Notes under the pieces: generated by a model
Databases searched by the model: none
The model's input: only the letters and a program-made list of their open reading frames with translations
Told to the model about the DNA's origin: nothing
Part shown: positions 6,926-21,770 of the stretch, piece by piece
How positions within the stretch are numbered: the stretch's first letter is position 1
Layout of the letters: each line of letters opens with the position of its first letter
Assembly: GCA_937138295.1 (NCBI GenBank)
Contig: CAKZOX010000020.1
Location: forward strand, 1-47,843
Length of the DNA stretch: 47,843 nucleotides
Source: an uncultured Campylobacteraceae bacterium
Lineage (GTDB): Bacteria > Campylobacterota > Campylobacteria > Campylobacterales > Arcobacteraceae
Direction of reading: 5' to 3'
Program-made: the position numbers and the translations under genes

Positions 6926-8158
6926 TTAATCCATATCAATAATAAAACTATTCATACCATCTTTATATTCATATCTAAATACAAATCCATGTATATCAAC
7001 TACTGTCTTAACAATATATAATCCTAGACCAAAACCATCTTTTCTTTTTTCTTCTTGAGTAAAGGCATCTGTGTAATAATCTAAATCTTGACTAAGTTTT
7101 TCACCATAAGAAGAAACAACAATTTGTTTTCTTGAAGCTTTAATATAAGCTTTTTTGTCAGGAGAAAATTTAACTGCATTATCAATAAGGTTTTTTATGA
7201 CAATAGTAAACATTGAAATATCAACATTTAAATTGAAATTAACATTATTTGTCTCGATAGAATTAACGTCAAGCATTGTTAAGTCAACTGTTTTATTATA
7301 TAAATCCATATAAGTGATATTTTCTTTTAGCATATTATAGTTTTTCGAAGTTAACTTTTCTACTGTTGATAGCTCTTTGATAATATCATCCATTCTTCTA
7401 AAAGACTTTTGAAGTGTGTCTCTTTTTTTATCATCATTTATTGTTTCAGCTATAAACATCGCTTTTGTAATAGGAGTTTTAAGTTCATGCATCATATTTC
7501 TCATAAACAAATCTTTTGACTTGGCTTGATTTTCTATGATATTTAAAGCAACTTGAAAACTCTTAGCAATAGTACCTATTTCATCATCACCATAAATTTG
7601 CTCAATTTTTATATTTCTATTACCCTTAGAAAATTCTATAATTTGATTATTTAAACTTTTTAAGGGAATTAATTTTTTCTTAACAGTAATAAATAAAAAA
7701 ACTAAAACAAAAAAAGATAAAGAAAAACCAAAAATTATATAAGTAACATTATGATCAGGTTTAGCAATATCTTTTAACATCAAGTTATAACCAAATTGTT
7801 GAACATAGATATAAAACTCTTCATTAAACTTATAAACCCTATACATTCCTTGAGAATTTCTTGTAATAATCAATTCTTGAGCATTATTGATAATATTTAG
7901 CTTCATATCCCTTTCAATTACTGGTTGAACTTGATACTTTCTAAAAAGCTTTATTAAAACATCAGTATCTGGTAAATTTTGAAATGTACTTAAAAAATTT
8001 TCAGCGATAAGTTCATACTTATCTTGCATATTTAATTCATGTTTTTGTTTGTCGTAGTTTACAAAAAGTGTAAATGTAATTAGAATTGAGATAAATCCCA
8101 ATGCAAAAATTACATTTATAAAAGTAGATATAGAGATATTTTTTAAAATATTTGTCAT
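6926..8158 (-). CDS. cprS: Sensor histidine kinase CprS-like
   Basis: This is a membrane histidine kinase of 410 aa. Transmembrane helix 1 is at about residues 13-33, a periplasmic sensor at 34-137, helix 2 at 139-160, a HAMP-like linker to about 215, and HisKA follows with phospho-acceptor His224 (MMHELKTPI). The HATPase_c domain has NLIDNAVKFSP and GFGLGLYIV. It overlaps the regulator gene by ATGA, so the two are translationally coupled. The order htrA, response regulator, kinase matches cprRS next to htrA in Campylobacter jejuni, where the system controls biofilm and envelope traits. The assignment rests on family resemblance plus this gene order. The signal sensed is unknown. Confidence 0.82.
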   Translation of the reverse strand: MTNILKNISISTFINVIFALGFISILITFTLFVNYDKQKHELNMQDKYELIAENFLSTFQNLPDTDVLIKLFRKYQVQPVIERDMKLNIINNAQELIITRNSQGMYRVYKFNEEFYIYVQQFGYNLMLKDIAKPDHNVTYIIFGFSLSFFVLVFLFITVKKKLIPLKSLNNQIIEFSKGNRNIKIEQIYGDDEIGTIAKSFQVALNIIENQAKSKDLFMRNMMHELKTPITKAMFIAETINDDKKRDTLQKSFRRMDDIIKELSTVEKLTSKNYNMLKENITYMDLYNKTVDLTMLDVNSIETNNVNFNLNVDISMFTIVIKNLIDNAVKFSPDKKAYIKASRKQIVVSSYGEKLSQDLDYYTDAFTQEEKRKDGFGLGLYIVKTVVDIHGFVFRYEYKDGMNSFIIDMD

Positions 8159-8835
8159 ACTAGTTGATAACCAATACCTCTAACTGATTTAATATAAGCC
8201 CTTGTATCATCTAGTTTAGATATTTTTGATCTAATTCTTGAAATGATAACATCAATATTTTTTAAAGATGAATCATCTTCAATATTATCACTTGCATAAA
8301 TAAAATCTTCTCTTGCAACTACTCCACCATTTCTACTGATTAATAGTTTTAAAATATCATATTCAGCAAGTGTTAGAGTTAAAGGGTCACCTTTAAAAAA
8401 GATTTGCATATCATTATCTCTAATTTCAAATGTAGATTCTTTTTTAGTAGCATTAGCATTTGAATTAACTGAATCTACTCTTTTCAAAATAGTTTTAATT
8501 CTAGCTTGTAATTCTCTAGGGTTATATGGCTTAGGTAAATAATCATCCGCACCTCTTTCAAGACCCATCACTTTGTCTAATATATCATCCCTTGCAGAAC
8601 TAATGATAATAGGTATAGATGATTTTTCTCTAATTTTTGGGATTAACTCTAATCCATCAATTTCTGGCAAAGTTAAATCTAAAATTAGTAGATTAAAGTC
8701 CTTATGCACACTTAACAAAGATAGCCCTTTATATGGACTATCTGTATTTACAACTTCAATATCAAATGAAGATAAATATTCTGTGATAATTTGAGCTAAC
8801 TCTAAATCATCTTCAATCATTAAAACCTTAATAAT
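8155..8835 (-). CDS. cprR: OmpR-family response regulator CprR-like, probable ATT start
   Basis: This is a response regulator with an N-terminal receiver (acidic cluster IEDD, phospho-acceptor Asp in LILDLTLP, Lys in LPKPYNP) and a C-terminal winged helix ending in RGIGYQLV. The only ATG (8820) gives MIEDD and removes the first receiver strand. The frame continues upstream as I-I-K-V-L-M-I-E-D-D, the normal family start, before an in-frame stop at 8851-8853. AAGGA ends 6 bases before the ATT at 8835, so I place the start there (226 aa). With the ATG start (also preceded by a weak AAGG) it would be 221 aa. It follows htrA by 10 bases and overlaps cprS by 4. Function is certain at family level; the start is an inference. 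Confidence 0.8.
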   Translation of the reverse strand: MIKVLMIEDDLELAQIITEYLSSFDIEVVNTDSPYKGLSLLSVHKDFNLLILDLTLPEIDGLELIPKIREKSSIPIIISSARDDILDKVMGLERGADDYLPKPYNPRELQARIKTILKRVDSVNSNANATKKESTFEIRDNDMQIFFKGDPLTLTLAEYDILKLLISRNGGVVAREDFIYASDNIEDDSSLKNIDVIISRIRSKISKLDDTRAYIKSVRGIGYQLV

Positions 8836-18977: not shown

Positions 18978-20759
18978 TTAATTCATATACTCTTTTTCAT
19001 ACCATTTAGCAAATACATACAAAGAATACAAGTGCTGTTTAAACTTTCTTGATTTTGCTAACTCATAAATATGTTTAACATAACTCTCATTAAACAAGTT
19101 TGTTTCATTGTTTACTTTTAAAATTGTATTTAAAATATCATCTTTATACTCTTGCTGTAACCATTCATTAAAAGGTGAATTAAAACCTTTTTTTGTTCTA
19201 TTAATTATTTCATTAGGTATATATTTACTAGCAACTTTTTTCAATAAATACTTGTTTGTATCCCCTACTTTTATACTAGATTGAACACTAAACATATAAT
19301 TAACTAAATTATAGTCTAAAAATGGTGTTCTAACCTCTAGTGAATTTCTCATGGAAATTCTATCGACTTTACTTAAAAGTCCATCACCTAGCCATATTTT
19401 CAAATCAATGTAACTCATCCAATCTACAGGGTCATTTTTAGGTTTTTCACCCTTAAAAGATGGAACTCTTTTAAATAATCTTTTCTTTTGAATATCTGTG
19501 TAAATTTCACCAAAACTATTATATAAAGTCTGTTTTTTTACAATTCTTCTAAGATATTCACTCTCTTTTGTATTATTTTGTAATGCACCTATTATATCAT
19601 CTAGAAAATCATTTTGGTGGGCTGATAATGTCTTTTCAAATTCATAATATTTTAAAAATTTTGCATAATTATCATAACCTAAAAAAATTTCATCACTTCC
19701 TTCACCTGATAATACTGTTTTAATTCCATCATTATGAATTTTTCTAGTTAATATATTCAAAGGAATAGCAGCACTATCTCCATGAGGTTCTTCTAATGCT
19801 TCTAAACTATCTTCAAAATACTCTATAAAATCATTCTTACCAATTACAACAGGATTATGATTTGAATTAATATGTTGTGCTGTTATTTGGGCATAATCTA
19901 ATTCACAATAATTTTTATATTCATCATATCCTATAGAGTAAGTATTGATTTTTTTGTTAGAAATCTTTGTATATAAAGCTGAAATAAGTGAACTATCTAT
20001 TCCACCACTAAGTAAACTTGCTACTTCGACATCCCCTACAAGTCTAGTTTCTACACTTTTAAATAGTAGTTCTTCAATATCAATTAGTGCCCTATTTTCA
20101 TCTTTGATTTTTTTATAGGTATTAATTTTATAAAATCTTTTAGTTGTAAGGTTTTTATTTTCAAAAACCATATAAGTAGCGGCTTCAAGTTTCTTAATGT
20201 CTTGATAAAAAGTATCTTCACCATAAGATGTAAAGTATTGTAAATATTTTGATAAAGCTACTTTATTTAGATTTGGCTTTTTAGGTAAAAGTTTTAAAAT
20301 AGATTTTATTGATGAAGAAAAAATAAATTTATTATCTTTAAAATAATAGAAAAATGGTTTTTTACCATATCTATCCCTAGCGCAAAAATATCTATCTTTT
20401 TTCATATCATAGATGCAAAAACTAAACATTCCATTCAATTTATTTAAAAAGTCATCGCCATATTTTTGATATAGTCTTATTATAACTTCACTATCAGAAG
20501 CAGTTTTAACTTCTATTTTTTCATCTTTGATAATTTCTTTATAGTTGTAAATTTCACCATTAAAAACAAGTAATATATCATCAAAAACCATAGGTTGATT
20601 TGCTTCACTATCTAAATCAATTATAGATAATCTAGTATGACCAAAACTTTTATTTTCTATAACTTTTATATCTTGAAAATCAGGTCCCCTATTTTCAATA
20701 TATTTTAAAGCTTCAGCAAAATTTACTGAATTAAAATTACAACCTAAAATTCCACACAT
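18978..20759 (-). CDS. asnB: Asparagine synthase (glutamine-hydrolysing)
   Basis: This enzyme makes asparagine from aspartate, ATP and glutamine. The 593-aa protein begins MCGILGC, with the nucleophile Cys2 of the glutaminase domain (to about residue 200; NRGPD, FNGEIYNY). The synthetase domain has the PP-loop SGGIDSS at 251-257 and SGEGSDEIFLGY. It is close in size to the usual 550-650 aa. Several such proteins sit in polysaccharide loci and amidate sugars, but nothing around it here indicates that. It starts 12 bases after the AEC carrier gene's region is approached from the other side: the carrier ends at 20772, upstream of the asnB ATG, so the two can share a transcript. Confidence 0.9.
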   Translation of the reverse strand: MCGILGCNFNSVNFAEALKYIENRGPDFQDIKVIENKSFGHTRLSIIDLDSEANQPMVFDDILLVFNGEIYNYKEIIKDEKIEVKTASDSEVIIRLYQKYGDDFLNKLNGMFSFCIYDMKKDRYFCARDRYGKKPFFYYFKDNKFIFSSSIKSILKLLPKKPNLNKVALSKYLQYFTSYGEDTFYQDIKKLEAATYMVFENKNLTTKRFYKINTYKKIKDENRALIDIEELLFKSVETRLVGDVEVASLLSGGIDSSLISALYTKISNKKINTYSIGYDEYKNYCELDYAQITAQHINSNHNPVVIGKNDFIEYFEDSLEALEEPHGDSAAIPLNILTRKIHNDGIKTVLSGEGSDEIFLGYDNYAKFLKYYEFEKTLSAHQNDFLDDIIGALQNNTKESEYLRRIVKKQTLYNSFGEIYTDIQKKRLFKRVPSFKGEKPKNDPVDWMSYIDLKIWLGDGLLSKVDRISMRNSLEVRTPFLDYNLVNYMFSVQSSIKVGDTNKYLLKKVASKYIPNEIINRTKKGFNSPFNEWLQQEYKDDILNTILKVNNETNLFNESYVKHIYELAKSRKFKQHLYSLYVFAKWYEKEYMN

Positions 20760-20771
20760 AAATAGACCTTT

Positions 20772-21686
20772 TTATTTAATGTAATAATCTATAATATAAA
20801 TATATATACTTAATAAACCAACAAACAAGGCACTTGAAATCAAAACACTAGCAGCTACATCAAAGGGTTTACAATGATATAAAGCAGCTAAATTTACATT
20901 ATTTACAGCTAAGGGAACCATAAGTTCTAATATAAGAATCTTTGCAACAAAAGGATTTAAATCTGTAAAGTTTACAACAACTATTATTCCAACTACGGGC
21001 AATAAAATATGCTTAACAAATGATATCTGTAAAGAACTATACCATGGCATAGTTTTTATTTTTACACTTGATAGATATATTCCAAATATTAAAAGCTGAA
21101 TAACCATAGAAGTATAAGCACCCATTTCTAAAGCTGTATAAATATGTTTATTGATTAATATTTCATTGTAGTTAATTAGTAAGGCTAATAAGGCAAACCA
21201 AATACCCGGAATTTTTAAAATTGAAAGAATTGCATCTTTTAATGCAAATTGTTCTCTAGCAAAAAAATAAACTGAAAAAATATAAATAAAGACAATATTA
21301 GCAATATTGATGATACTTGTATAAGGAACTGACTCTATACCAAAAAGTGCTATTCCTAAAGGAATACCAAGATTACCTGTATTTCCTACTAAAGCCACAG
21401 CTAAATAAATTGATTGATCAGTTCTTTCTTTAAAAATTAAAGTAGCAGCGGGAATTAAAAATACTAATAAGCCTAAAACTATAGCTAAATAAATAATAGG
21501 TGAGGCTATAAACTCATAATTTATTGGTGATTTTGTTAAACCCCAAAATATTAAAATTGGTTGAAAAAAATATAATGATAATAGTACTAATGTTCTTTCA
21601 TTTATTTCATCTCTAAAAACTTTTTTTGAGATAAAACCAAGTAATATAAAAAAATAAACGGGAAGAACTGATATAACAGCTTCTAT
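20772..21686 (-). CDS. AEC-family (auxin efflux carrier) transporter, probable ATA start
   Basis: This is a ten-helix-type permease of the AEC family, exporting or importing organic anions or amino acids. The frame is open from just after TAG at 21710, and the normal N-terminus reads EAVISVLPVYFFILLGFIS. No ATG, GTG, TTG or CTG occurs in it before a GTG at 21398, which lies in the third or fourth helix. AAGGA (21698-21694) is 7 bases before ATA at 21686, which gives 304 aa, the usual family length. ATC at 21689 would be too close to the ribosome site. Later motifs include VGNTGNLGIPLG and LELMVPLAVNNVNLAALYHC. It is either a non-canonical start or a start-lost pseudogene. Confidence 0.7.
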   Translation of the reverse strand: MEAVISVLPVYFFILLGFISKKVFRDEINERTLVLLSLYFFQPILIFWGLTKSPINYEFIASPIIYLAIVLGLLVFLIPAATLIFKERTDQSIYLAVALVGNTGNLGIPLGIALFGIESVPYTSIINIANIVFIYIFSVYFFAREQFALKDAILSILKIPGIWFALLALLINYNEILINKHIYTALEMGAYTSMVIQLLIFGIYLSSVKIKTMPWYSSLQISFVKHILLPVVGIIVVVNFTDLNPFVAKILILELMVPLAVNNVNLAALYHCKPFDVAASVLISSALFVGLLSIYIYIIDYYIK

Positions 21687-21705
21687 GATAAAGTCCTTAT
21701 GATAA

Positions 21706-21736
21706 GAATCCTAAAAATCCTAATTTTTAGGAATTC
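21706..21736 (-). terminator. Terminator after the phosphate transporter gene
   Basis: GAATCCTAAAAAT (21706-21718) and ATTTTTAGGAATTC (21723-21736) pair with one bulged A around a 4-base loop. It lies 35 bases past the stop of the PiT gene and just before the carrier's ribosome site; it contains the in-frame TAG that bounds the carrier frame. Confidence 0.65.
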
Positions 21737-21770
21737 TATCATAATGTATATAAGTTTTAAAAAATATGTC

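Follow-up and report, generated by a model that had tools for sequence, protein, structure and literature searches.

A conserved AUH codon coupled to a strong Shine-Dalgarno motif as the probable start of an AEC-family carrier gene in Arcobacteraceae

The carrier gene and its leader

The minus strand of our window, the whole 47,843-nucleotide stretch of an uncultured Campylobacteraceae genome that was analysed (contig CAKZOX010000020.1), carries at 20772..21686 a gene for an AEC-family (Mem_trans, PF03547) carrier of 304 amino acids counted from an ATA codon. Full-length orthologues are 50-79% identical to the protein, and its residues 4-143 match Pfam PF03547 (E=1.5e-15) with a score of 57.1 bits, above the curated cut-off of 25.7, which places it among the AEC transporters. 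The reading frame is open from 21710, next to an upstream TAG stop codon (21713-21711). Its putative start is the ATA at 21684..21686, where protein conservation begins and where orthologues have a homologous ATH codon (ATA, ATC or ATT; AUH denotes AUA, AUC or AUU in the mRNA). The Shine-Dalgarno motif AAGGA (21694..21698) lies 7 nt 5' of the ATA, a spacing inside the 5-8 nt mode of a relative's canonical genes. The first canonical in-frame start codon is a GTG at 21396..21398, internal codon 97, from which the protein would be 208 amino acids long.

A preliminary description of this DNA had stated that no ATG, GTG, TTG or CTG occurs in frame between 21710 and the GTG at 21398, that AAGGA stands 7 nt before the ATA at 21686, and that initiation at the ATA yields a 304-residue AEC protein; all of this is confirmed, with AAGGA at 21698-21694. 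A run of 96 codons free of these NTG triplets is unremarkable alone in so AT-rich a genome, and 8.8% of the 96-codon stretches in the window's other genes also lack all four. The telling point is that the carrier gene is without any canonical start at its beginning. No alternative canonical codon that would give the conserved N-terminus lies upstream in frame in the window; in a few orthologues weak, unconserved canonical starts do occur upstream. Orthologues beginning at the GTG, which the description had named as evidence against the ATA, were absent from those examined.

An extended -10-like element, TATGATAGAAT, occupies 21733..21743 on the minus strand; in the window it is a consensus match only, and it is probably the gene's own promoter. 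In most AEC orthologues the start is preceded, at about 28-35 nt, by a TATGATAAAAT-like -10 element, which suggests that the gene has its own promoter and a short leader. The ribosome-binding and start unit of the window appears to be tandemly duplicated, AGGATTCTTATCATA being followed by AGGACTTTATCATAG (21683..21712, minus strand); the sister genome G017 has a single unit. The upstream ATA of the duplicated unit opens a frame of 5 codons, whose TAG overlaps the ATA at 21686.

An inverted repeat is found in 18 of 43 AEC leaders, where the extended -10 (TGATAAAATTCC) pairs with the Shine-Dalgarno motif, spacer and start (GGAATTTTATCA), from about -40 to +6; L003, L012, L026, L033, L038, L053, L055-L057 and others are of this type. 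The folding z-score falls below -2 in 18/43 leaders (42%), against 9% of 77 control leaders. The repeat may serve as an operator, or it may keep read-through transcripts from being translated.

Most Arcobacteraceae have asnB, for a glutamine-hydrolysing asparagine synthase, 3' of the AEC gene at a distance of -1 to 12 nt; the asnB-AEC stretch of the window is 18978-21686 on the minus strand. In the A. cryaerophilus/vitoriensis group asnB is not next to the carrier gene. An operon with asnB was rejected as the reason for AUH because this arrangement, although common, is missing in the A. cryaerophilus group, where the ATA is kept.

Conservation of the ATH codon and its Shine-Dalgarno motif

The ATH codon is conserved in Arcobacteraceae, fixed in position, stable on the phylogeny and coupled to a Shine-Dalgarno motif. 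It sits just before a conserved Glu-Ala in 47 of 56 Arcobacteraceae-type AEC orthologues (ATC in 26, ATA in 20, ATT in 1), and the remaining 9 have a canonical start; membership of the family was taken from public-record names. In other Campylobacterales the AEC start is ATG, TTG or GTG. The preliminary description had proposed that an ATG at the same position in orthologues would indicate start loss, and had left the choice between initiation at ATA/ATC and a lost start; the orthologues, mostly ATH, uphold the former and speak against the latter. ATH codons are present at this position in the complete genomes G002, G005, G010 and G017 and in the named isolates Arcobacter caeni, Poseidonibacter, Malaciobacter halophilus and Aliarcobacter vitoriensis, so that the codon of the window cannot be put down to start loss or sequence error.

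Among the ATH orthologues, amino-acid identity ranges over 0.09-0.35 before the ATH codon, with 0.11 at codon -1, and climbs to 1.0, 0.92 and 0.88 at codons 1-3. Across codons 2-85, differences between the window and its relatives are mostly at the third position (relative to G017, 18 at position 1, 8 at position 2 and 37 at position 3). Therefore, these codons are translated. ATT makes up 57% of isoleucine codons inside AEC genes, yet it accounts for only 1 of the 47 ATH starts; the choice of start codon does not follow isoleucine codon usage.

On a tree of 93 AEC genes, 5 changes between ATH and canonical codons suffice, compared with 31 when the labels are shuffled, and one clade of 44 genes comprises 43 with ATH and a single reversion to ATG. 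This reversion belongs to a pair of sister species, L019 and L021 (G021, G003), which share a nearly identical weak leader, one having ATG and the other ATA; the Shine-Dalgarno motif was lost alongside. Outside Arcobacteraceae, a metagenome genome labelled Sulfurovum (L080) is an exception in that its AEC gene starts with ATA.

A Shine-Dalgarno motif accompanies 47 of 48 ATH starts and 6 of 46 canonical starts of AEC orthologues (Fisher p=7e-19, a value that ignores shared ancestry). The single ATA without a strong motif is that of L021, an Arcobacteraceae member, and 40 of the 46 canonical starts are without a strong motif. In canonical genes of the G017/G005 pair the Shine-Dalgarno spacing is centred on 6 nt, so that the AUH codons stand at a normal distance from the motif.

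AUH codons in cprR and other genes

The preliminary description had pointed to cprR as a second such case in the window. This was borne out, and at least six additional genes show the pattern. The cprR-like gene for an OmpR-family response regulator (8155..8835, minus strand) has a putative ATT start at 8835-8833 with AAGGA (8846-8842) 6 nt before it, and its first ATG is codon 6. ATH (ATA, ATC or ATT) occurs in 15/15 close Arcobacteraceae orthologues of cprR; in other families the codon is mostly ATG. An ATT start of cprR is also seen in L127 (G046), which belongs to another family. Together with the ATA of the AEC gene in L080, it indicates that AUH starts may have a wider reach in the order.

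We surveyed 1.2 Mb of each of the complete relatives G017 and G005, comprising 792 orthologous ORF pairs, for an aligned ATH codon with a Shine-Dalgarno motif in both genomes and no canonical alternative. This yielded 10 matches, of which 8 are real genes; the other two, an antisense match to 16S rRNA and a probable non-gene, were dropped. Because the motif was a condition of the survey, its coupling to ATH in these 8 genes is partly a product of selection. Besides the AEC carrier and the cprR product, the eight encode an HI0933-like FAD oxidoreductase, a 53-aa zinc-ribbon-like protein, a histidine kinase and one lipoprotein-like, one small membrane and one secreted protein. As background, other codon classes gave 0-2 matches, except AAH with 5; two of these represent the codon beside AUH genes already counted and the rest resemble artefacts, so AAH added no gene. 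ATH with AAGGA at 6 nt was found for the FAD oxidoreductase and the zinc-ribbon protein in about 10 genomes each and for the histidine kinase in about 14. In other relatives, the FAD oxidoreductase has instead an ATG without a Shine-Dalgarno motif.

Mechanism, alternatives and meaning

We consider it highly likely that the AEC gene is intact and that its ATA at 21686 acts as an AUG-less throttle start, ancestral to Arcobacteraceae and shared with at least seven more genes, cprR among them. AUH would then be the ancestral and maintained start codon of the carrier in this family. The ordinary fMet-tRNA with its CAU anticodon would initiate at AUH despite a third-position mismatch, enabled by a strong Shine-Dalgarno motif at optimal spacing, and proofreading by IF3 would hold the yield low. 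From these sequence patterns we infer actual initiation at AUH, its low yield and the part of IF3. The arrangement would throttle translation of a membrane carrier whose low expression is presumably beneficial, a device that cprR and six or more further genes of the family would share.

The initiator tRNA anticodon-arm pattern with CAU was present in 35 of 37 genomes, the exceptions being the incomplete G000 draft and G038. A search of the 37 genomes for arms with a different first anticodon base yielded no convincing initiator; the matches were palindromic or scattered, and in several genomes they were about as numerous as those of a reversed-pattern control. A special initiator tRNA was accordingly dismissed as the cause. 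Likewise, 21 aligned IF3 proteins, compared by eye, displayed nothing peculiar to the family and no obvious special residues, and a relaxed IF3 was set aside because the factor looks ordinary in this alignment. With an ordinary initiator tRNA and an ordinary IF3, mismatched pairing of fMet-tRNA at AUH is the simplest mechanism. The infC gene starts with TTG, not AUH, in nearly all Campylobacterales genomes examined (L142-L162). It is conceivable, if rather unlikely, that the level of IF3 jointly sets the output of the Arcobacteraceae AUH set, about 1% of genes, so that cprR, the sensor kinase, the carrier and others co-vary whenever the stringency of initiation shifts.

Several other readings of the locus have to be weighed. 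A recent start-loss mutation or a sequencing error that breaks the AEC gene would be easy to imagine in a draft genome (86.75% complete, 222 contigs), but the ATH codons of complete genomes and named isolates refute this reading, whose probability we regard as negligible. We give equally little credence to translation of a 208-aa protein from the GTG at 21398: although this is the first canonical start codon, the 96 codons before it are conserved as protein, their changes are biased to third positions, and no orthologue examined begins there. An out-of-frame start followed by a frameshift is scarcely more probable. The ATG at 21741 opens a 19-codon frame whose TAG overlaps the ATA at 21686, but this ATG overlaps the -10-like element, so that the transcript is expected to start downstream of it, and orthologues keep just the unit of Shine-Dalgarno motif and AUH. 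It also seems improbable that AUH is fixed by the inverted repeat, in which the -10 pairs with the Shine-Dalgarno motif and start as an operator or hairpin, rather than by initiation. The excess of folded AEC leaders over controls favours such a role; however, the window itself, Poseidonibacter and the A. cryaerophilus group lack the repeat and still have ATH, and ATH also occurs in the different leaders of cprR, the histidine kinase and the oxidoreductase.

More weight is due to compensated drift, in which AUH is a real start without a regulatory role and a strong Shine-Dalgarno motif allows a weak codon to be tolerated at roughly constant yield. We think this possible but on the whole doubtful. 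The AEC orthologues have made a near-perfect swap of a strong codon without a Shine-Dalgarno motif for a weak codon with one, as has the FAD oxidoreductase, and compensation between start codon and Shine-Dalgarno motif has been described for GUG and UUG (PMC5622118). Two observations speak against drift. ATG was regained only once, although the tree is about 10 substitutions per column long and AUG is generally favoured, and ATC and ATA are preferred to ATT, a sign that the codon itself is under constraint. The reversion test is nevertheless a weak one, since G makes up only 4.4% of four-fold sites in these AT-rich AEC genes and ATG would in any case be reached slowly by drift. The AUH data are compatible with a regulatory throttle as well as with compensated drift.

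The throttle that we favour has counterparts elsewhere. In Staphylococcus aureus, ccpN (AUA), cvfC1 (AUU), infC (AUA) and citZ (AUA) have AUH starts; with ccpN, cvfC1 and citZ the yield is about 10% of that from AUG, rising in rich medium to as much as 30% for ccpN, and the weak codons are accompanied by extended Shine-Dalgarno motifs (PMC13009471). Both systems combine conserved AUH codons with a strong, well-spaced Shine-Dalgarno motif and a proposed throttle, and both sets include a regulator and a small zinc-binding-like protein (a zinc-finger-like one of about 60 aa in S. aureus). They differ in that the S. aureus case concerns few genes of a Firmicutes species and rests on ribosome profiling and reporters, whereas that of Arcobacteraceae, in Campylobacterota, is known from sequence; moreover, in Arcobacteraceae AUC is common, the set reaches about 1% of the surveyed ORF pairs and infC starts with TTG. 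Escherichia coli infC and pcnB have AUU starts, the former mediating IF3 autocontrol, according to the passages of PMC1780047 and PMC5601948 that cite these cases. There, as would be so for the AEC gene, a weak AUH start limits translation; the E. coli genes are unrelated to ours and, in those passages, use AUU only. A published AUU case from an isolated species resembles the AEC gene in that the full-length frame is available only with an AUU start, deduced from sequence, but differs in that family-wide conservation was not reported there. In a survey of start-codon evolution, the switch from AUG to AUU occurred 1 time in 61,358, and weak GUG and UUG starts were compensated by stronger Shine-Dalgarno motifs (PMC5622118). 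The trade-off is the same here, but what is a rare change in that survey is a stable state of the Arcobacteraceae.

The AEC start would thus be a weak start of the infC, pcnB and ccpN kind, with unusually many such genes in one family. Natural AUH starts usually come in ones and twos per bacterium, as with infC and pcnB of E. coli, and the S. aureus study has four sites; Arcobacteraceae keep putative AUH starts in at least 8 genes, among orthologues whose protein identity falls to about 50%. Because standard gene callers ignore AUH, database entries for these proteins are probably truncated or mislabelled: truncation at the GTG, which the preliminary description had plausibly expected of gene callers, would cost the AEC carrier its first 96 residues and presumably its function, and cprR would lose its first five. 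Furthermore, the AUH set of Arcobacteraceae offers a natural system in which weak starts selected for regulation may be told from those merely tolerated in the company of a strong Shine-Dalgarno motif.
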